The notes below the pieces were generated by a model, which worked only from the letters and a program-made list of their open reading frames with translations, had not been told where the DNA came from and made no database searches. Below, piece by piece: positions 19,151-30,292 of a stretch of DNA of 34,183 nucleotides. The DNA lies in IMG/VR virus record IMGVR_UViG_3300002228_000012, positions 1 to 34,183 of that record. The stretch is one strand, 5' to 3'. The DNA comes from a virus. The first letter of the stretch is position 1, and each line of letters begins with the position of its first letter. The translations under genes were made by a program, and so were the position numbers.

Positions 19151-21036
19151 GCGGCAAACATCGGGCGAATGCCGCGATCCCCTGCCTCGTCAATCAGCTT
19201 GTCGAACAGGCTTGACAATTGGCCCCCTGAAATCAGGTCGTTAGGTTGAAGCCCCTGGATCATAACGTCCAAAGGTTTTGGAGCCGCCGCAGCAGCCGCA
19301 GCGCCACCGGCACGACCACCTCCCGATGCGGAGTTAGCGCCGCCATTGGCATTCACGCCCGCGATTGTGGCAACGCTCGCCAAGCCGTTCGCAATAACGG
19401 CAGCCGCCGCCGCGAAGTTTGCCGGGAATGGTATCGTCCGCAGCGCGTTGGTCGCGCCTACATAGGTGTTAATCAAAGCCTCTGCGATGCCAAACGCCTT
19501 GGCAATGCCCGCGGTTTTCTTACCGCCTGCCTGGGCAAGATTTGCCAGCGCGCCAAACAGCGAACTTGTTTGCCCTAGCATGGTGTTGCGCTTGGCCGCT
19601 TCGATTGCTGTAATCTTGTCGGCGGTGTCCTGATTGATTTGCGCCACCAAATCGCCGTGTTCTTGCTCTTTAATGACGCCCTGCTCCCTCGCATCATCCG
19701 CAACCGCGATTTTATTTAGGCCGTGAGCGTAAGCGGCCTGCTCATCTGTAAGGTAAAACTCGCGGAGCCTGTCCAATCGGCGCTGCAAAGATTCCTGTTC
19801 CGCCAATTCCTCAGATGCAAGCCTTTCCTTTAGCTGCTCCATCTTGGCCGTTGCTTCTTTGTCTTCCGCGCCCAATCCGCTTAACCCACCAAGCCCTGAT
19901 GATCCACTTGGGGCAACGGGAGGGCCACCAAGGACGGACCTTACCTGCGCTTGTATTTGCTTTATGCGCTCAATAATAGGGACAAATTCAGTAAGCTCTT
20001 TTTTTAATTTATCAATGTTGTTGCCCGCGTTGCTTCTAACGTGCGCCATCGTCGATTCAGTGGTCTGCAAATCAAGTAGCGAAATTTTTGCCGCCCCTGT
20101 GGCATCGGCGACTTCATTCCATCCCTTCGCCAAGATGACTAGCCCAGCAATAGCATTTTCAGACATCGCCGCCATGGCGCGGTCAATCTCTTCAATATTG
20201 ATTTGCATCTGAATAATGATTTTTCGCACATCATCAATCTCGGCCCCAAGGAAGGCCATGGCCTGATTGCCAAGATTGCCCATATACTCCGCGCTTGCGC
20301 CAGATTGAAGGAACTGGTCAGATAAATACTTGACCAAAGGCGCAACATAAGATGCGACCATATTGCCGACGCCCTGGAGTGCATCTTGCACCCTGGCGAA
20401 TGCATCGTGAGCCGCTTCTATAGTCTGCGCGTCAACCTGTGAGACGGATAGGCCAAATTTATCTTGGAATGCGGCGGCATCGGCGGCCTTGTCGCTATAA
20501 TCCTCCAGCATCCCAATGATGGCGCGGCCTGACCTGCCGAAAATATCCATCGCCGTTGCGGTTCGAAGCGCGGGGTCGTCAATTTCGTTTAGACGCGCGG
20601 CAATATTTTTGAATTGCTCATCAGGCGAAAGCCCTGCAATGTCTTTAAACGTAACGCCTAGCCGTGCAAAAGCGTCAACTTGCGCCGCCGTTCCGGATGC
20701 CATCTCAATGATATTGCGCTGCATCAATCCAATCGATGATGACAACGCGCCCATTTCAACACCGGCCTCTCCAGCAACCTGAGCCATAATCTTGAATTGA
20801 TTATGTGTCAGGCCGATGCTGCGAGCCATCTTCGTGGTGTCGTCAATGGCCTGCGCCTGCTTTCGCGCGAATACCGCAAGGCCAACAGCGCCAGCCGCAA
20901 ACGCCGCCGCTGCTGCAATCCCTGCGTATTTTGCCGCCCCCGCAAACTTATTTAGCCGCCCTTCTGCGCTGCTAATCGTTTTTGAAAACTGGTCAGCGTC
21001 TGCGCCGATTCTGACAATAAGCTTAGGGAGCGCCAT
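19147..21036 (-). CDS. Tape measure protein
   Basis: A 629-residue protein. The N-terminal signature ADADQFSKTISSAEGRLNKFAG, a long alanine-rich hydrophobic segment (residues about 34-58), KMARSIGLTHNQFKIMAQ and extended helices identify the tape measure. A second alanine/glycine-rich hydrophobic segment lies near residue 540. At about 0.15 nm per residue it predicts a tail of roughly 95 nm. It follows the frameshifted chaperone genes in the usual order and overlaps the second by 14 bases. Confidence 0.9.
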   Translation of the reverse strand: MALPKLIVRIGADADQFSKTISSAEGRLNKFAGAAKYAGIAAAAAFAAGAVGLAVFARKQAQAIDDTTKMARSIGLTHNQFKIMAQVAGEAGVEMGALSSSIGLMQRNIIEMASGTAAQVDAFARLGVTFKDIAGLSPDEQFKNIAARLNEIDDPALRTATAMDIFGRSGRAIIGMLEDYSDKAADAAAFQDKFGLSVSQVDAQTIEAAHDAFARVQDALQGVGNMVASYVAPLVKYLSDQFLQSGASAEYMGNLGNQAMAFLGAEIDDVRKIIIQMQINIEEIDRAMAAMSENAIAGLVILAKGWNEVADATGAAKISLLDLQTTESTMAHVRSNAGNNIDKLKKELTEFVPIIERIKQIQAQVRSVLGGPPVAPSGSSGLGGLSGLGAEDKEATAKMEQLKERLASEELAEQESLQRRLDRLREFYLTDEQAAYAHGLNKIAVADDAREQGVIKEQEHGDLVAQINQDTADKITAIEAAKRNTMLGQTSSLFGALANLAQAGGKKTAGIAKAFGIAEALINTYVGATNALRTIPFPANFAAAAAVIANGLASVATIAGVNANGGANSASGGGRAGGAAAAAAAPKPLDVMIQGLQPNDLISGGQLSSLFDKLIDEAGDRGIRPMFAA

Positions 21037-21217
21037 CGGTCATTCCTTCCATCGCATACTCCCAAAGATCATTCACATCTGCGCGGGTTAGCTTGCCAGC
21101 AAAATCGCCGGGTTGCCGCGCGCGATTATGCTCATACAATAGCCACCACTCAGGCATAGTCATATCCCAAAACTCGCTTGGCGAAATGCCCCAAGATGTG
21201 GCATGTAAAAACATCAT
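21023..21217 (-). CDS. Tail assembly chaperone, frameshift extension (T-like part)
   Basis: This 64-residue frame (SPSEFWDMTMPEWWLLYEHNR, then LTRADVNDLWEYAMEG) matches the second part of tail assembly chaperones, which has a conserved FWDMTxPEW helix. It lies in the -1 frame relative to the preceding gene. That frame stays open back to the A7 slip site at 21280-21286 with no start codon in between. It is therefore probably made mainly as the C-terminal 85 residues of a fusion (about 194 residues) and not on its own, although ATG 21217 exists. Confidence 0.8.
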   Translation of the reverse strand: MMFLHATSWGISPSEFWDMTMPEWWLLYEHNRARQPGDFAGKLTRADVNDLWEYAMEGMTDGAP

Positions 21218-21606
21218 GCTCCAATCGATTTGGGCCGCTTCTGTTTCTGAGGTGGCGGCTTTGACTGCTCCGCGGCGGCTTTTTTTGGGTCTTCTCCTGG
21301 CGGAGAAATCGCCTCAACAACGCAGCCAAGAATGACCGCGATGCCTTCGCTGTTATTGTCTTGCATATCCCTGGCAAGGACGCCGTAGACTTCATCCTCC
21401 GTCACGCCGCGAACGCCAGCCGATTTTAGAAACTCGGTCATAACGTAAGCAATATCGAATATCGGGAAGCGCCCATCATTTGACCTGTTAATAAGGTCAA
21501 CAAAAGACACCTCCCGCTCTATCCGCCTCAACAGCTTGTTGGATGGAGTGAAGGGATACGCTTCCCCATTCCATTCCAAAGAGATTTCGCGAAATACTCC
21601 GGTCAT
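21214..21606 (-). CDS. Tail assembly chaperone (G-like part)
   Basis: A 130-residue protein. REISLEWNGEAYPFTPSNKLLRRIE is the start typical of tail assembly chaperones, followed by helices and a lysine/proline-rich end. It binds the tape measure while the tube assembles. A -1 slip at codons 108-109 (AAA AAA in an A7 run) would replace the last 21 residues by the 21023-21217 product. Position between major tail protein and tape measure fits exactly. Confidence 0.85.
   Translation of the reverse strand: MTGVFREISLEWNGEAYPFTPSNKLLRRIEREVSFVDLINRSNDGRFPIFDIAYVMTEFLKSAGVRGVTEDEVYGVLARDMQDNNSEGIAVILGCVVEAISPPGEDPKKAAAEQSKPPPQKQKRPKSIGA
21280..21286 (-). other. Programmed -1 frameshift site
   Basis: The minus strand reads CCA AAA AAA GCC in the chaperone frame, giving the slippery A-AAA-AAA heptamer followed by G. 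After a -1 slip the next codon is AGC and the frame runs to the stop at 21023-21025 without interruption. The GC-rich sequence immediately downstream (GCCGCCGCGG) could stall the ribosome. Confidence 0.85.
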
Positions 21607-22103: not shown

Positions 22104-22625
22104 TTATCCGCGTGAAGTTACGCGGAATTCCAATAGAGCCCGATGCGTCCTGCCATCGGTCGAAACGTCAAAAGCCATACCTTCGCATTCGGTGCTGATA
22201 TGGCCCGGCAATTCCGGCAAGTCTTGCCGCTGCAATAGCGTGTAGACCGCCGCCGCTATCGGCTTGATAGCTAACTCGCTGGTTGTGCGGTGCCATACGT
22301 CAACCTGGACCGTTGCATCGCTCCCGCCTTCGTCCTTGTCCGGCAATCCTCCATCATTTGGAAATGCGATGGTGATATAGGGGAAGTATGCCGGATCTTC
22401 TGATTGCGGTATTTGCGGGCTGGCTTGCGTGTATATGGCCGCGTTGACGCCAAGCGTTATCGTGCCGCTGTTATCACCTTCAAGTTCCAGGTCGCCACTG
22501 AAATCGCCTTCAAGTTCCAAGTCGTCGAACGGCACTAGCGATGTATGCGAGGATGACATAAGCGCCGCCAAAGACGCGGTGTTAAGTGCGGAAAATATGG
22601 CAATCTGCAATTCTTCAGGTCGCAC
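22104..22625 (-). CDS. Tail completion protein (DUF3168-like) with internal repeat
   Basis: A 173-residue protein starting at GTG 22625 (11-base overlap with the gene before). PYITIAFPND, VQVDVWHRTTSELAIKPIAAAVYTLL and the terminal beta strands match the DUF3168 tail completion family, which joins tail tube to connector. Residues about 34-53 hold two copies of DLELEGD(F/N)SG, coded by a 30-base tandem repeat (22465-22494 and 22495-22524). I would not expect this insertion in the family; it may be a surface loop. Confidence 0.8.
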   Translation of the reverse strand: MRPEELQIAIFSALNTASLAALMSSSHTSLVPFDDLELEGDFSGDLELEGDNSGTITLGVNAAIYTQASPQIPQSEDPAYFPYITIAFPNDGGLPDKDEGGSDATVQVDVWHRTTSELAIKPIAAAVYTLLQRQDLPELPGHISTECEGMAFDVSTDGRTHRALLEFRVTSRG

Positions 22626-24103: not shown

Positions 24104-24348
24104 TATTCAGCCGCCTTCTTTCTGGTGTATTTGCGTTTCGGCGGGACTTCTGCCGGTGCCGTCGCCTTAAACTCGCTCGGCCCGTTTACCTTGGTCGCAT
24201 AGCTGACGACTGGAACAGCCGCGCCCGCATCAATGGCGACTTGCGCAAACCGGCCTTCAATCTCAGTGCCCCACGGCAGGGTAATGACCGTGTGCCCTTC
24301 CGGCGCGTATCGCCAGCCGAGTTGCGCCGTAATCTTTGCCTTGGTCAT
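24103..24348 (-). CDS. Small protein with basic tail, unknown function
   Basis: An 81-residue protein starting in the ATGA overlap with the methyltransferase gene. The body is beta-rich (GHTVITLPWGTEIEGRFAQVA) and the last 15 residues are basic (KRKYTRKKAAE). Its place between head-associated and connector genes suggests a small virion or assembly protein, perhaps contacting DNA through its tail. No family is recognised. Confidence 0.55.
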   Translation of the reverse strand: MTKAKITAQLGWRYAPEGHTVITLPWGTEIEGRFAQVAIDAGAAVPVVSYATKVNGPSEFKATAPAEVPPKRKYTRKKAAE

Positions 24349-25664
24349 GCCTTCCCCTCCGCTGCTTCACTTGCCGCCCTCACAAGCCCATTTGCTGGCT
24401 TGCTATGGTCGTAGCGTGCTTCAATCTCTTCTGCCGTTGGCAGTTCCCGCGGCTCTATGTTGAGCCCCATGCCACCGCTATCCGATAGCCGGACCTTGTA
24501 GCCGTCATAGCCATAAAACAGCGAGTCCGGCCCGTCGCAAACGTCCATCAATGACGTATCGCGCGGCAATGTAATCTGGACGCCTTGCGACTTGGCTATT
24601 GCAATCCAGTATTCCAGACATGCCCGCCCGCGCTCTGCGGAGTGGCTGTTGGCGTAGGTGTAATCGCAGCCAAACAAGCTGATACGGCCAACGCGCCGAT
24701 ATAGGGCATATGCCACCGCATAGGCGACCGTGCCGTTAAAGTACGCCTCACCGGTCGCCTTAACGACTTTCTGCAACGGGTATTCCACCAATCCCGGATA
24801 CCCCGGCTCTAGGTGGCTGGTATATATCGGCCCCGGATGCGTTTTGATCCATTCGATCATGCGCGCAATGTTGCTTTCAGGATGCGCCGCCGCCCGCGAT
24901 TCCTGTACCCGCACATCGTCCATGTGCCAGATGCGATCTGCCCGCAAAACGTCACCAAGCGCGTTGATTGGCCATATCTCGTCACAGTATGCCGATGCGC
25001 CGCCCGCGCGCTTGCAATGGTCAACGAACGTGTCAGACGATGGCCCCAAGCCAACGATGGCAACATGCTTTCCGTATAGCGCCGCAAAGTCTGCGTTGCG
25101 CTTGCACCGGGCAACCAGCGTCCGGCCTGGGGTATCCCCTACCGCGCTTGTGTCGCCTTCCTGGTGCCTGATTTCCTCAACATTCCATCCGCTGCCATCC
25201 AGCAGGTCGATGAATTGCTCTTCTGTGTAATGCCGATGATGAAACCGAACCTTGCCGCCATGCGGGAAGTGCGTCTCATTCGGCACGCTCGCGAGCAGGT
25301 ATTCTGCCTTCACTGCGCGCAAAAACTTTTCCGGCTTCTGGACGTGTTCGATGCACTCAAACGCCACGGCATAGTCAGCATTGCCAACGTCCGCCATGCG
25401 CCAGCCGGTCTGCAAATCGGCCTCATGGTATCGGGCTGTTTTGTAGTTCGCCGCGCCATATTCCAGCGCCTCAACATCGCAATCGATGCCGATCACGTCA
25501 CGCTTGCCCCGCGCCAGCAAGTCGGCCCCATAGCCAACACCGCAGCCCAAGTCCAGCACGCTTGCGCCTGCCGGAATGATGCTATCCGCCCACTGGTAGC
25601 GGGCAACGTGATCTTGCCGAATGCCGTCAATCGACGGTGCAACTTGTCTTTCGCCGGGGCGCAT
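24345..25664 (-). CDS. Two-domain protein: SAM methyltransferase plus DUF115-like domain
   Basis: ATG 25664 follows a perfect AAGGAGG, giving 439 residues; the frame opens earlier at 25751, inside the terminator region. Residues 30-190 form a class I SAM-dependent methyltransferase: VLDLGCGVGYG (36-46), the acidic strand end GIDCD, and FECIEHVQKPEKFL. From residue 200 a second Rossmann-like domain begins (VAIVGLGPSS), with DEIWPINALGD, DRIWHMDD, and later GRISLFGCDYTYA, reminiscent of DUF115-type sugar-related proteins. The substrate is unknown; a small molecule, glycan or protein is likelier than DNA. The first 222 codons are duplicated upstream, in the chimera. Its presence between head and connector genes is unusual. 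Confidence 0.8.
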   Translation of the reverse strand: MRPGERQVAPSIDGIRQDHVARYQWADSIIPAGASVLDLGCGVGYGADLLARGKRDVIGIDCDVEALEYGAANYKTARYHEADLQTGWRMADVGNADYAVAFECIEHVQKPEKFLRAVKAEYLLASVPNETHFPHGGKVRFHHRHYTEEQFIDLLDGSGWNVEEIRHQEGDTSAVGDTPGRTLVARCKRNADFAALYGKHVAIVGLGPSSDTFVDHCKRAGGASAYCDEIWPINALGDVLRADRIWHMDDVRVQESRAAAHPESNIARMIEWIKTHPGPIYTSHLEPGYPGLVEYPLQKVVKATGEAYFNGTVAYAVAYALYRRVGRISLFGCDYTYANSHSAERGRACLEYWIAIAKSQGVQITLPRDTSLMDVCDGPDSLFYGYDGYKVRLSDSGGMGLNIEPRELPTAEEIEARYDHSKPANGLVRAASEAAEGKA

Positions 25665-25699
25665 TATGGCCTCCTTGCTGTTTCCGGTACGATAGTTGC

Positions 25700-25744
25700 C
25701 CGGTACAAAAAAGGCGGAGCCGAAGCCCCGCCAGTTTGTACCGG
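25700..25744 (-). terminator. Composite intrinsic terminator after the head gene (copy A)
   Basis: Core hairpin 25732-25713 on the minus strand: GGCGGGGC-TTCG-GCTCCGCC followed by TTTTTT (25712-25707). A perfect 10-base outer stem, CCGGTACAAA (25744-25735) with TTTGTACCGG (25709-25700), encloses it and uses part of the U tract. It lies between the 143-residue head gene and the methyltransferase gene. Confidence 0.9.
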
Positions 25745-25769
25745 AGTGCAACCCTTGCGGGATGCTTGG

Positions 25770-26201
25770 TTAGGTCGCCACTGGCGCGCGAGCCGCCCGC
25801 GTCAACACGGCATTGACCGCAATCGGCGGCGCTGCGGTGACGGTGCTTTTCACATCGGCCCGGATATAGCGCTTGCTGCCGATATAGCCGATCCGCTTGG
25901 CCACGTTTTCAGTGCTGCCATCGACGCGAACCGCCGCGGCCAAACCGGCTGCTAGTTCGGTGCCCAGCAAGTCGGTATCGGCAACCGAAGTCATGGTGCC
26001 GGTGACTTCGCCTTCCAACACGGTCACGGTGAAAACCGCATCAGTTGGCGTGACAGCGCCATAGTTGATGGCCAGTTCAACAGCGTCATAGCCGCGGGTA
26101 TCAATGACGTTGCCGGTACGGCCCGTGCCAGTCGTTCCAACCGTGATTGGCGGGATGACAGCCACAATATCTACATTGTTATGGAGATCACGATAAGCCA
26201 T
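25770..26201 (-). CDS. Small head-associated protein, duplicate copy
   Basis: A 143-residue protein identical to the product of 27905-28336. YRDLHNNVDIVAVIPPIT, GNVIDTRGYDAVELAINYG, ADTDLLGTEL and RIGYIGSKRYIRADVKST match a beta-rich protein often found directly after major capsid genes. It is plausibly a decoration or stabilisation protein, but its role is unproven. This copy follows the chimeric gene and precedes the composite terminator. The DNA copies differ only in a couple of bases near the start codon. Confidence 0.8.
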   Translation of the reverse strand: MAYRDLHNNVDIVAVIPPITVGTTGTGRTGNVIDTRGYDAVELAINYGAVTPTDAVFTVTVLEGEVTGTMTSVADTDLLGTELAAGLAAAVRVDGSTENVAKRIGYIGSKRYIRADVKSTVTAAPPIAVNAVLTRAARAPVAT

Positions 26202-26224
26202 GTTTTTGGCTCCTTTCTGCTCGG

Positions 26225-27799
26225 TTACGAGCCAAACTTGATGAGCTTGATTGCCTCGAAGTTCACCACGTCGCCGCCCGAACGCTTGACGGTGTAGAAG
26301 TGAACATACGGCTTGTTGGTGTACGGATCGCGCAGGACGCGGATGCCGGAGCGGTCAACAATCTGGTAAGCCTCGCGGAAGTCTGCAAAGGCGATAGACA
26401 GGCTGTCGGCTGCAATGGCTGGCATATCCTCAAACGGCGCAATCGGGTAGCCAGCGAGACGGTCAGGAATGCCCGCCTGTGCCGATGGCTGCCAGATGTA
26501 AGCGCCATCCGAATCCTTCAGCTTGCGCACGTCTGCGACCGCGGTCCGGTTCATTGCCCAACTGGCATTAACGCGGTAGCGGGCCTTGGTCTTGCCGACA
26601 ACGGTGTAGAAGATATCCACGCCCGCGCCGGACGCCGCAAAGCCTCCGCTTACGCCTGTCGCCGACTGTTCAATAGTGCCGGGGAGCGTGGTGCCGTTCG
26701 CATAGGTCAGGAAACCGCGCCACTTGCCGACGCCGTCGCCGGTGACGGAGGCGGTGTTTTCTGCCCGCCCCATGGCTTCGCCGACCTTGTTAGCCAGCCA
26801 AGTTTCCATGTTGATTTCCGCATCATCAAGCAGCTTTTGGGTAGCTGCCGGGTTTGCGTAAATCTCATGCACTGGGATGCGCCAAGCGCCAAGCTGCGGA
26901 GTGTTGGTCTCCGTCCGGGCGGCGGTTTCACCAACCCAGCCGACCGATGCCTCGTCCAGGTCATACATGCCTTCGAGCGCATCAGTGCTGATGGTCTGAA
27001 TATTGGCGAAGGCGCGAATGACCGAAGTCTCAAACTCTTTGGTTACGATGCGGCCCGACATATCGGGATGCACCACATAGCCGCCGTCAGGGTCGCTGCC
27101 GACCGAAAGAGCCTTGGTCTGGACGGCATCAAGTCCGCCAGCCCGCTTGCAATGGTCAACGAACGTGTCAGACGATGGCCCCAATCCAACGATGGCAACA
27201 TGCTTTCCGTATAGCGCCGCAAAGTCCGCGTTGCGCTTGCACCGGGCAACCAGCGTCCGGCCTGGGGTATCCCCTACCGCGCTTGTGTCGCCTTCCTGGT
27301 GCCTGATTTCCTCCACATCCCAGCCGCTACCGTCTAGCAGGTCGATGAATTGCTCTTCTGTGTAATGCCGATGATGAAACCGAACCTTGCCGCCATGCGG
27401 GAAGTGCGTCTCATTCGGCACGCTCGCAAGCAGGTATTCCGCTTTCACTGCGCGCAAAAACCTTTCCGGCTTTTGGACGTGTTCGATACACTCGAACGCC
27501 ACCGCATAATCAGCGTTGCCAACGTCAGCCATGCGCCAGCCGGTCTGCAAATCGGCCTCATGGTAGCGGGCTGTTTTGTAGTTCGCCGCGCCATATTCCA
27601 GCGCTTCAACATCGCAATCCACGCCGATCACGTCACGCTTGCCCCGCGCCAGCAAATCGGCCCCATAGCCAACACCGCAGCCAAGGTCCAGCACGCTTGC
27701 GCCTGCCGGAATGATGCTATCCGCCCACTGGTAGCGGGCAACGTGATCTTGCCGAATGCCGTCAATCGACGGTGCAACTTGTCTTTCGCCGGGGCGCAT
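26225..27799 (-). CDS. In-frame chimera: methyltransferase N-terminus fused to major capsid protein
   Basis: ATG 27799 follows AAGGAGG, giving 524 residues. Residues 1-222 are the methyltransferase domain and the first part of the second domain (VAIVGLGPSS at 201-210). From residue 223 (LDAVQTKALSVGSDPDGG) the sequence is the major capsid protein from its residue 127 to the end. The junction (27133/27134) keeps frame and lacks any stop. The delta domain of the capsid protein is thus replaced by an enzyme domain, and the expected cleavage region around QTK-ALS is kept. It differs from the intact methyltransferase at three residues (I/V, K/R, N/D) before the junction, and from the intact capsid at one (Q for K). 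It could be a minor capsid component, a dead by-product, or an assembly chimera. Confidence 0.7.
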   Translation of the reverse strand: MRPGERQVAPSIDGIRQDHVARYQWADSIIPAGASVLDLGCGVGYGADLLARGKRDVIGVDCDVEALEYGAANYKTARYHEADLQTGWRMADVGNADYAVAFECIEHVQKPERFLRAVKAEYLLASVPNETHFPHGGKVRFHHRHYTEEQFIDLLDGSGWDVEEIRHQEGDTSAVGDTPGRTLVARCKRNADFAALYGKHVAIVGLGPSSDTFVDHCKRAGGLDAVQTKALSVGSDPDGGYVVHPDMSGRIVTKEFETSVIRAFANIQTISTDALEGMYDLDEASVGWVGETAARTETNTPQLGAWRIPVHEIYANPAATQKLLDDAEINMETWLANKVGEAMGRAENTASVTGDGVGKWRGFLTYANGTTLPGTIEQSATGVSGGFAASGAGVDIFYTVVGKTKARYRVNASWAMNRTAVADVRKLKDSDGAYIWQPSAQAGIPDRLAGYPIAPFEDMPAIAADSLSIAFADFREAYQIVDRSGIRVLRDPYTNKPYVHFYTVKRSGGDVVNFEAIKLIKFGS

Positions 27800-27834
27800 T
27801 ATGGCCTCCTTGCTGTTTCCGGTACGATAGTTGC

Positions 27835-27879
27835 CCGGTACAAAAAAGGCGGAGCCGAAGCCCCGCCAGTTTGTACCGG
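27835..27879 (-). terminator. Composite intrinsic terminator after the head gene (copy B)
   Basis: Same structure as at 25700-25744, shifted by 2135: UUCG-capped hairpin 27867-27848, TTTTTT 27847-27842 and a 10-base outer stem. It lies downstream of the intact capsid gene and its 143-residue partner, so it should limit transcription of the chimera and later genes. Confidence 0.9.
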
Positions 27880-27904
27880 AGTGCAACCCTTGCGGGATGC
27901 TTGG

Positions 27905-28336
27905 TTAGGTCGCCACTGGCGCGCGAGCCGCCCGCGTCAACACGGCATTGACCGCAATCGGCGGCGCTGCGGTGACGGTGCTTTTCACATCGGCCCGGAT
28001 ATAGCGCTTGCTGCCGATATAGCCGATCCGCTTGGCCACGTTTTCAGTGCTGCCATCGACGCGAACCGCCGCGGCCAAACCGGCTGCTAGTTCGGTGCCC
28101 AGCAAGTCGGTATCGGCAACCGAAGTCATGGTGCCGGTGACTTCGCCTTCCAACACGGTCACGGTGAAAACCGCATCAGTTGGCGTGACAGCGCCATAGT
28201 TGATGGCCAGTTCAACAGCGTCATAGCCGCGGGTATCAATGACGTTGCCGGTACGGCCCGTGCCAGTCGTTCCAACCGTGATTGGCGGGATGACAGCCAC
28301 AATATCTACATTGTTGTGAAGATCACGATAAGCCAT
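27905..28336 (-). CDS. Small head-associated protein following the major capsid gene
   Basis: A 143-residue protein starting 23 bases after the capsid stop, with AAAGGAGCC just before its ATG. It is beta-rich with the pattern DLHNNV, IDTRGYDAVELAINYG, DLLGTEL, GYIGSKRYIRADV, found in many phages immediately after HK97-type capsid genes. It is plausibly a capsid decoration or stabilising protein; that is inference from position. It is identical in protein sequence to its duplicate and is followed by the composite terminator. Confidence 0.82.
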   Translation of the reverse strand: MAYRDLHNNVDIVAVIPPITVGTTGTGRTGNVIDTRGYDAVELAINYGAVTPTDAVFTVTVLEGEVTGTMTSVADTDLLGTELAAGLAAAVRVDGSTENVAKRIGYIGSKRYIRADVKSTVTAAPPIAVNAVLTRAARAPVAT

Positions 28337-28359
28337 GTTTTTGGCTCCTTTCTGCTCGC

Positions 28360-29646
28360 TTACGAGCCAAACTTGATGAGCTTGATTGCCTCGAAGTTCA
28401 CCACGTCGCCGCCCGAACGCTTGACGGTGTAGAAGTGAACATACGGCTTGTTGGTGTACGGATCGCGCAGGACGCGGATGCCGGAGCGGTCAACAATCTG
28501 GTAAGCCTCGCGGAAGTCTGCAAAGGCGATAGACAGGCTGTCGGCTGCAATGGCTGGCATATCCTCAAACGGCGCAATCGGGTAGCCAGCGAGACGGTCA
28601 GGAATGCCCGCCTGTGCCGATGGCTGCCAGATGTAAGCGCCATCCGAATCCTTCAGCTTGCGCACGTCTGCGACCGCGGTCCGGTTCATTGCCCAACTGG
28701 CATTAACGCGGTAGCGGGCCTTGGTCTTGCCGACAACAGTGTAAAAGATATCCACGCCAGCGCCGGACGCCGCAAAGCCTCCGCTTACGCCTGTCGCCGA
28801 CTGTTCAATAGTGCCGGGGAGCGTGGTGCCGTTCGCATAGGTCAGGAAACCGCGCCACTTGCCGACGCCGTCGCCGGTGACGGAGGCGGTGTTTTCTGCC
28901 CGCCCCATGGCTTCGCCGACCTTGTTAGCCAGCCAAGTTTCCATGTTGATTTCCGCATCATCAAGCAGCTTTTGGGTAGCTGCCGGGTTTGCGTAAATCT
29001 CATGCACTGGTATGCGCCAAGCGCCAAGCTTCGGAGTGTTGGTCTCCGTCCGGGCGGCGGTTTCACCAACCCATCCGACCGAAGCCTCGTCCAGGTCATA
29101 CATGCCTTCGAGCGCATCAGTGCTGATGGTCTGAATATTGGCGAAGGCGCGAATGACCGAAGTCTCAAACTCTTTGGTTACGATGCGGCCCGACATATCG
29201 GGATGCACCACATAGCCGCCGTCAGGGTCGCTGCCGACCGAAAGAGCCTTGGTCTGGACGGCATCAAGTACGCGGTCGTCTTTGCGCAGATACGCATCAA
29301 ACGCAGACTTGTACGCCTTCAGATCATCGGCCCCGTATTCCTGGATATTGGTGCCCTGGGCGCGTGCGTTGCGCTTGGCCCACTTGAGCGCCTTGGCGTC
29401 AAGATCGACTTCGCCGCCGCTGCCATCGGACACGATCCGGGATGCACGCTTGACCGCCAACACCGCATCATCCGCAACCTTTTGGGCAGCGTCCAAATCG
29501 GCGTTGATCTTGGCCATCTTCTCTTCAAGCACGACATCGCGCGCCTTCAGGTTTTCATCATTCGCGGCCTTGAACGCCTCAAAGCCCGCATTCAACGCTT
29601 CGACGGCCTTTTTGGCCTCTAGCATCGTGTTGTTATCGTCAGACAT
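28360..29646 (-). CDS. Major capsid protein, HK97 type (intact copy)
   Basis: ATG 29646 follows GGAAAGG and overlaps the protease stop by 8 bases, giving 428 residues. Residues 1-126 are a charged helical delta domain (KKAVEALNAGFEAFKAAND, then KINADLDAAQKVADDAVLAVK). ALSVGSDPDGGYVVHPDMSG begins the mature HK97 fold, with IRAFANIQTISTDALEG, VGWVGETAARTET, PVHEIYANPAATQKLLDDAEINME and GDGVGKWRGFLTY following. The protease should remove the delta domain near residues 130-135. Codons 127 onward are duplicated in the chimera. Confidence 0.95.
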   Translation of the reverse strand: MSDDNNTMLEAKKAVEALNAGFEAFKAANDENLKARDVVLEEKMAKINADLDAAQKVADDAVLAVKRASRIVSDGSGGEVDLDAKALKWAKRNARAQGTNIQEYGADDLKAYKSAFDAYLRKDDRVLDAVQTKALSVGSDPDGGYVVHPDMSGRIVTKEFETSVIRAFANIQTISTDALEGMYDLDEASVGWVGETAARTETNTPKLGAWRIPVHEIYANPAATQKLLDDAEINMETWLANKVGEAMGRAENTASVTGDGVGKWRGFLTYANGTTLPGTIEQSATGVSGGFAASGAGVDIFYTVVGKTKARYRVNASWAMNRTAVADVRKLKDSDGAYIWQPSAQAGIPDRLAGYPIAPFEDMPAIAADSLSIAFADFREAYQIVDRSGIRVLRDPYTNKPYVHFYTVKRSGGDVVNFEAIKLIKFGS

Positions 29647-30292
29647 GAAATTGCCTTTCCAGTTGCCTGATTGCATCAAAAAAGCCGCCCGTATCAGGCG
29701 GCTCGGCTACCGGCTCTGCTTTCACATCGTCCCGATGCTCTGCTAGCCCTTTGAAACCCTGGGCCGCAATGGCCTTGGCTTCCGTTTGAGAGAAACCCGC
29801 ATCCCGCAAGGCTCGCTCAAAATCTCGAATTGTCCTGATCGACTTGACCGCCGTTACCTGCGCGTCTGGCAGCATGGGGAACGTGACAAGGCTCACCTCA
29901 AATAGCTCCACCTCATCAAGCGCCCGAATGCGCCCGCCAGCTTCATCGCTTGCCTCTTTGACGCGATAGCCGATTGACATGCTGTCCATTGCGCCAGCCT
30001 TCAGCAGCGCCGCGGCTTCATCCGCACGGCGAACGCCTTTGACCAATCGCCCGCGAACGAATAGCCCGCGCTCGTCCTCTTCCACCTTTTCCCATACGCC
30101 AATGGGCTGGCTTTGATCGTGCTGCCAGAGCATCTTGACCTTCCGCCCGCCTGCCAGCGACTTCGCAAACGCGCCGGGCTTCACCACGTCGAGCCCTTGG
30201 TCCACCACGTCGAAAACCGAAGCATAGCCCTCAAAGACGCCTTCCGCGTCCGGCTCTGCCTTCAGTTCAAAGGCGGCTGATTTGTATTTCAT
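29639..30292 (-). CDS. HK97-type prohead protease
   Basis: ATG 30292 (217 residues); a TTG lies one codon earlier. VFEGYASVFDVVDQGLDVVKPGAF is the start of the caudovirus prohead protease fold. The catalytic histidine is in MLWQHDQSQPIG (His58) and the catalytic serine in MDSMSIGYRV (probably Ser106), followed by ELFEVSLVTFPMLPDAQVTAVK. It cleaves the capsid delta domain during maturation and itself. It lies directly before the capsid gene, as usual. A terminator-like hairpin sits in its last codons. Confidence 0.93.
   Translation of the reverse strand: MKYKSAAFELKAEPDAEGVFEGYASVFDVVDQGLDVVKPGAFAKSLAGGRKVKMLWQHDQSQPIGVWEKVEEDERGLFVRGRLVKGVRRADEAAALLKAGAMDSMSIGYRVKEASDEAGGRIRALDEVELFEVSLVTFPMLPDAQVTAVKSIRTIRDFERALRDAGFSQTEAKAIAAQGFKGLAEHRDDVKAEPVAEPPDTGGFFDAIRQLERQFHV
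29678..29703 (-). terminator. Terminator-like hairpin inside the end of the protease gene
   Basis: On the minus strand AGCCGCC (29703-29697) pairs with GGCGGCT (29689-29683) around a 7-base loop. The final T of the stem continues into a run of six T (29683-29678). It lies in the last codons of the protease gene, about 30 bases before the capsid start. Confidence 0.6.

Follow-up and report, generated by a model that had tools for sequence, protein, structure and literature searches.

A direct tandem repeat of 2135 bp in the capsid region of this virus record very probably arose, judging from the sequence, when two haplotypes were brought together, whether in the sequencing library or assembly or by recombination. 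The window, that is, the whole IMG/VR virus record of 34183 bases, contains no Ns, and self-BLAST of it gave a single off-diagonal match, between positions 25000 to 27138 and 27135 to 29273 (2139 columns, 39 mismatches, no gaps, offset 2135). Chance is excluded as the source of a 2.1-kb repeat. Counted from its outer borders, the repeated unit is 2135 bp long (25000 to 27134 and 27135 to 29269), with 38 mismatches (98.2% identity) and no indels, and the 39th mismatch of the self-BLAST match is the first base beyond the right copy. The self-BLAST result confirmed the tandem duplication of 2135 bp at constant offset reported in the preliminary description, as well as its place, with the coordinates given there being one base off. 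The two adjacent direct copies, with intact genes at their outer sides, have the layout of a tandem duplication. The features of the region are as follows.

24345 to 25751, minus strand: intact methyltransferase gene, SAM methyltransferase domain plus conserved C-terminal domain (Pfam, alignment)
25000 to 27134, no strand: copy 1 of the unit, 2135 bp, continuous with the left flank (self-BLAST)
25713 to 25732, minus strand: terminator-like hairpin before the methyltransferase ATG, copy 1 (terminator scan)
25770 to 26201, minus strand: 143-aa gene, phrog_5707, copy 1, downstream of the capsid gene in relatives (phrog match, relatives)
26225 to 27886, minus strand: in-frame fusion ORF, 553 aa (ORF list, Pfam, copy comparison)
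27134 to 27135, no strand: junction, where capsid sequence ..GGCATCAAGT meets methyltransferase sequence CCGCCAGCC.. (sequence comparison)
27135 to 29269, no strand: copy 2 of the unit, 2135 bp, continuous with the right flank (self-BLAST)
27848 to 27867, minus strand: the corresponding terminator-like hairpin, copy 2 (terminator scan)
27905 to 28336, minus strand: 143-aa gene, phrog_5707, copy 2, protein identical to that of copy 1 (phrog match, copy comparison)
28360 to 29679, minus strand: intact HK97-type major capsid protein gene (Pfam PF05065, phrog_10)

All genes in the duplicated region lie on the minus strand, and their order of transcription is capsid, 143-aa gene, 553-aa ORF, second 143-aa gene, and methyltransferase gene. 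The contents of the unit were as originally described, namely, the C-terminal part of the capsid gene, the 143-aa gene, a terminator-like hairpin, and the N-terminal part of the methyltransferase gene, and the intact capsid and methyltransferase genes were likewise found at the outer ends. In both copies the hairpin, followed by a T run, stands ahead of the methyltransferase ATG; the listed TTG start of the methyltransferase gene stands before this hairpin, and the gene likely starts at the ATG at 25664. The methyltransferase protein (24345 to 25664, minus strand) is composed of two modules: besides the SAM methyltransferase domain, there is a C-terminal domain that is highly conserved and carries the motifs GPSxD..., DExW.IN, and HMDD. 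The latter domain occurs alone at the same place in L013, L014, L016, L018, L028, L078, and others, and obtained no identity from Pfam, NCBIfam, or PDB sequence or fold searches; among the matches listed in the fold search of the intact protein, there were methyltransferases only.

The tandem form is unique to this record within the sequences searched. Six relatives (L002 to L007) were found at 85 to 95% nucleotide identity and a seventh (L026) by its capsid, which amount to only 3 to 4 independent lineages, with L003/L004/L007 and L002/L005 forming near-identical sets. L003, L006, and L007 run from the capsid gene through the 143-aa gene into the methyltransferase gene with one copy of each, and L003 also continues through the left flank. 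Moreover, the order of capsid, 143-aa gene, and methyltransferase (or C-terminal domain alone) was found at ∼35 loci, always once, with capsid identity down to about 30%, and no direct repeat of at least 150 bp was present in 107 related loci (101 contigs, about 1 Mb). Because the spanning relatives have one copy and repeats are absent from the 107 loci, the single copy is considered ancestral. The single unequal exchange proposed earlier agrees with this result, since one non-allelic join explains the layout. The phage collection searched held no near-identical genome and gave weak capsid-level matches only, and the cellular genomes searched yielded one distant relative, in a metagenome bin.

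The differences between the two copies are best read as standing strain variation brought together rather than as change after duplication, because they are mostly synonymous and clustered, both alleles often occur among relatives, one segment appears to be non-sister, and the relatives are mosaic. Twenty-eight of the 38 differences fall within 25000 to 25550 (551 bp, 5.1%), none within the next 630 bp, and 10 within the remaining 954 bp, the gap without differences (25551 to 26180) having a permutation p of about 5e-5; identical runs between the copies measure 630, 378, 251, and 186 bp. Synonymous changes make up 32 of the 37 coding differences, compared with about 24% expected without selection, and the excess extends to the redundant stretches of the fusion. 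Nonsynonymous changes occur at 4 of the 28 sites of the methyltransferase segment (3 codons), versus about 76% expected without selection, and at 1 of the 7 differing sites of the capsid part, while the two copies of the 143-aa gene have 2 synonymous differences, with the sampled relatives 23% different over most of this gene. At 12 of the 28 methyltransferase-segment sites both alleles were present among relatives, compared with 15 to 20% expected for new third-position mutations (binomial p of 0.002 to 0.005). Within 25000 to 25550, copy 1 differs from copy 2 by 5.1% and each differs from L002 by 4.9%, and the best tree of this segment placed copy 1 with L002 (bootstrap 99). A sister arrangement of the two copies was 10.9 log units worse and was rejected by the AU test (p=0.020), but not by the KH (0.053) or SH (0.126) test; tree tests are weakened by recombination, and the independent lineages among the relatives are few. 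Outside this segment the copies are identical or nearly so. The shared polymorphism and the apparently non-sister segment are the marks of a contig whose parts come from different co-circulating haplotypes. The view that the copies had diverged within one phage lineage, and were unusual for that reason, finds no support, given the synonymous excess, the allele sharing at 12 of 28 sites, and the position of copy 1 nearer to L002.

To judge from these comparisons, the phage population is strongly mosaic. For instance, L006 matches the window without a difference over 114 bp, departs from it by 23% in the 143-aa gene and then by 0.8% across the capsid gene end, and is 0 to 2% away from it in some segments. 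Since the relatives are mosaic throughout, no assignment of the left and right flanks to distinct strains was possible. As separate observations, L002 and L005 match both sides of 19645 to 21563 (tape measure gene region) with ∼1.7 kb unmatched between, a strain-variable module, and the tail module holds two adjacent 30-bp direct repeats at 22464 to 22523 that are 83% alike. In addition, the contigs of L006 and L007, from different samples, end at window positions 24912 to 24917, inside the methyltransferase gene and near the left duplication border, perhaps because assembly broke off where the sequence is conserved between phages; L018 matches 24815 to 24938 at 81%.

If two haplotypes were joined, haplotype A would give the left part up to 27134, ending within the capsid gene, and haplotype B would begin within the methyltransferase gene at 27135 and extend to the right end, so that the 2135 bp covered by both would be written twice. 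The apparent divergence of the copies would then be ordinary strain polymorphism older than the join, and one join event would account for the layout. We regard it as improbable that the unit was duplicated within a single lineage and diverged where it stood, with patches later replaced by recombination with other strains. The identical runs of 630, 378, 251, and 186 bp and the clustered differences would fit a recent exact duplication with at least one replaced patch, as would the near-identity of the 143-aa gene between copies when the sampled relatives are so different; however, extra exchanges would be required for the apparently non-sister methyltransferase segment and the shared polymorphism, and the redundant copies have few nonsynonymous changes. 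Duplication in one lineage followed by drift is thus disfavored.

At the junction itself, a T is joined to a C, with no base common to the parental sequences at the break; CGC is common to both one base past the break. A second source for the short stretch at the join (CCGCCAGCC and its neighbors), sought within the window, was not found to explain the join, and an exact search of IMG/VR, with wildcards at variable sites, gave no match to the junction in any other contig. A direct repeat of 2.1 kb with identical runs of 630 and 378 bp is expected to be lost quickly by homologous recombination. Because microhomology is missing at the join, unlike at T4 duplication junctions, because no other IMG/VR contig contains the junction, and because such a repeat should be unstable, we favor an artifact and give about even credence to two co-circulating haplotypes of one phage population having been joined end to end at non-allelic points in the sequencing library or the assembly. 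Against an artifact, an N-free join in a short-read graph assembly normally calls for a read across 27134/27135, and the 630-bp identical run would be hard to pass twice; graph assemblers tend to fragment at conserved regions or give a consensus (PMC11443906). Given the N-free join and the long identical runs, an artifact would therefore need a chimeric read, a merging step, or long reads.

Real illegitimate recombination between strains is plausible but short of probable. Two strains infecting one cell would have supplied the DNA ends, one lying in the capsid gene of the first strain and the other in the methyltransferase gene of the second, and their joining would give a phage genome with a partial tandem duplication, in which a single fusion ORF is redundant and the two parental genes stay intact. 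Consistent with such an event, the outer genes are intact, no stop or frameshift has been acquired, the junction is continuous without Ns, and the relatives are visibly mosaic. The window also encodes a phage recombination pair on the plus strand, a single-strand annealing protein (phrog_3290, 654 to 1454) followed by an exonuclease (phrog_10477, 1467 to 2162). The absence of microhomology, the quick loss expected of the repeat on general knowledge, and the lack of the tandem form in any relative found weigh against it.

Tandem duplications of similar size are documented in phages, which also speaks for recombination between strains, and include 1.8-kb tail-fiber duplications in EfV12-phi1 (PMC6365445) and segmental dmd-tifA amplifications in T4, where duplication junctions typically have 6 to 10 bp of microhomology (PMC9391042), a usual but not required property that was not found at the present junction. 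Like the repeat in this record, those duplications are direct tandem repeats of about 2 kb from a non-allelic join. They are, however, recent, within one genome, under selection, and seen as raised read depth, whereas the copies in this record carry strain-level differences. Inter-strain chimeric metagenome contigs (PMC11443906) resemble this record in their mixed haplotypes of one virus population and in the conserved runs between strains, while this record differs from them in having a tandem repeat and a clean join, free of Ns and overlap, rather than a switch at a shared position. The weights placed on all readings here are judgments and were not computed, with what remains after the artifact and inter-strain recombination going to duplication within one lineage and to further readings.

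The join preserves the reading frame and gives the 553-aa ORF, which was absent from the preliminary description. This ORF consists of methyltransferase residues 1 to 250 followed by the capsid from residue 138, with the N-terminal 137 capsid residues missing, and its Pfam matches are to methyltransferase families at 59 to 192 and to the entire Phage_capsid profile at 268 to 551. We consider it very unlikely that the ORF is a functional product under selection, i.e., a capsid core with a methyltransferase domain replacing the N-terminal 137 residues. The frame is kept (a one-in-three chance), the ORF has the whole HK97 core (PF05065 positions 1 to 280), and amino acid changes in the ORF are few; on the other hand, nearly all of the conserved methyltransferase C-terminal domain is missing (an alignment of 18 proteins has 51 invariant columns, of which 47 fall past the break), the fusion is present in no relative, and the purifying pattern is accounted for by strain polymorphism. 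The structure prediction was too poor for use, with a poor methyltransferase half (mean pLDDT of 64.7, pTM of 0.53), and nothing relevant on capsid-methyltransferase fusions was found in the literature. The T4 proteins gp23 and gp24 are an example of phage capsid gene duplicates kept as paralogues. As in T4, more than one HK97-fold capsid gene is present in the record, but the second copy here is cut short and fused, with about 99% identity to the first where the two correspond, and is absent from relatives. A functional fusion is without support, with no sign of use. We give next to no credence to a natural recombinant phage that makes a hybrid capsid subunit, in which the methyltransferase domain would replace the N-terminal scaffold (delta) region, beside the normal capsid gene and possibly as a minor co-assembled subunit.

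The repeat is probably no old duplication that has been maintained but a curiosity of minor interest, and the divergence of its copies within a single genome, the main cause of surprise, can be explained more simply. Should the join prove to be an artifact, the record deserves a flag, and capsid genes that are fused or duplicated within one metagenome contig should not be taken as biology. If the join is real, illegitimate recombination between strains would have been caught before collapse of the repeat, with an in-frame hybrid gene as a by-product, and the record would illustrate how mosaic phages and fused genes begin, a process that is already known.
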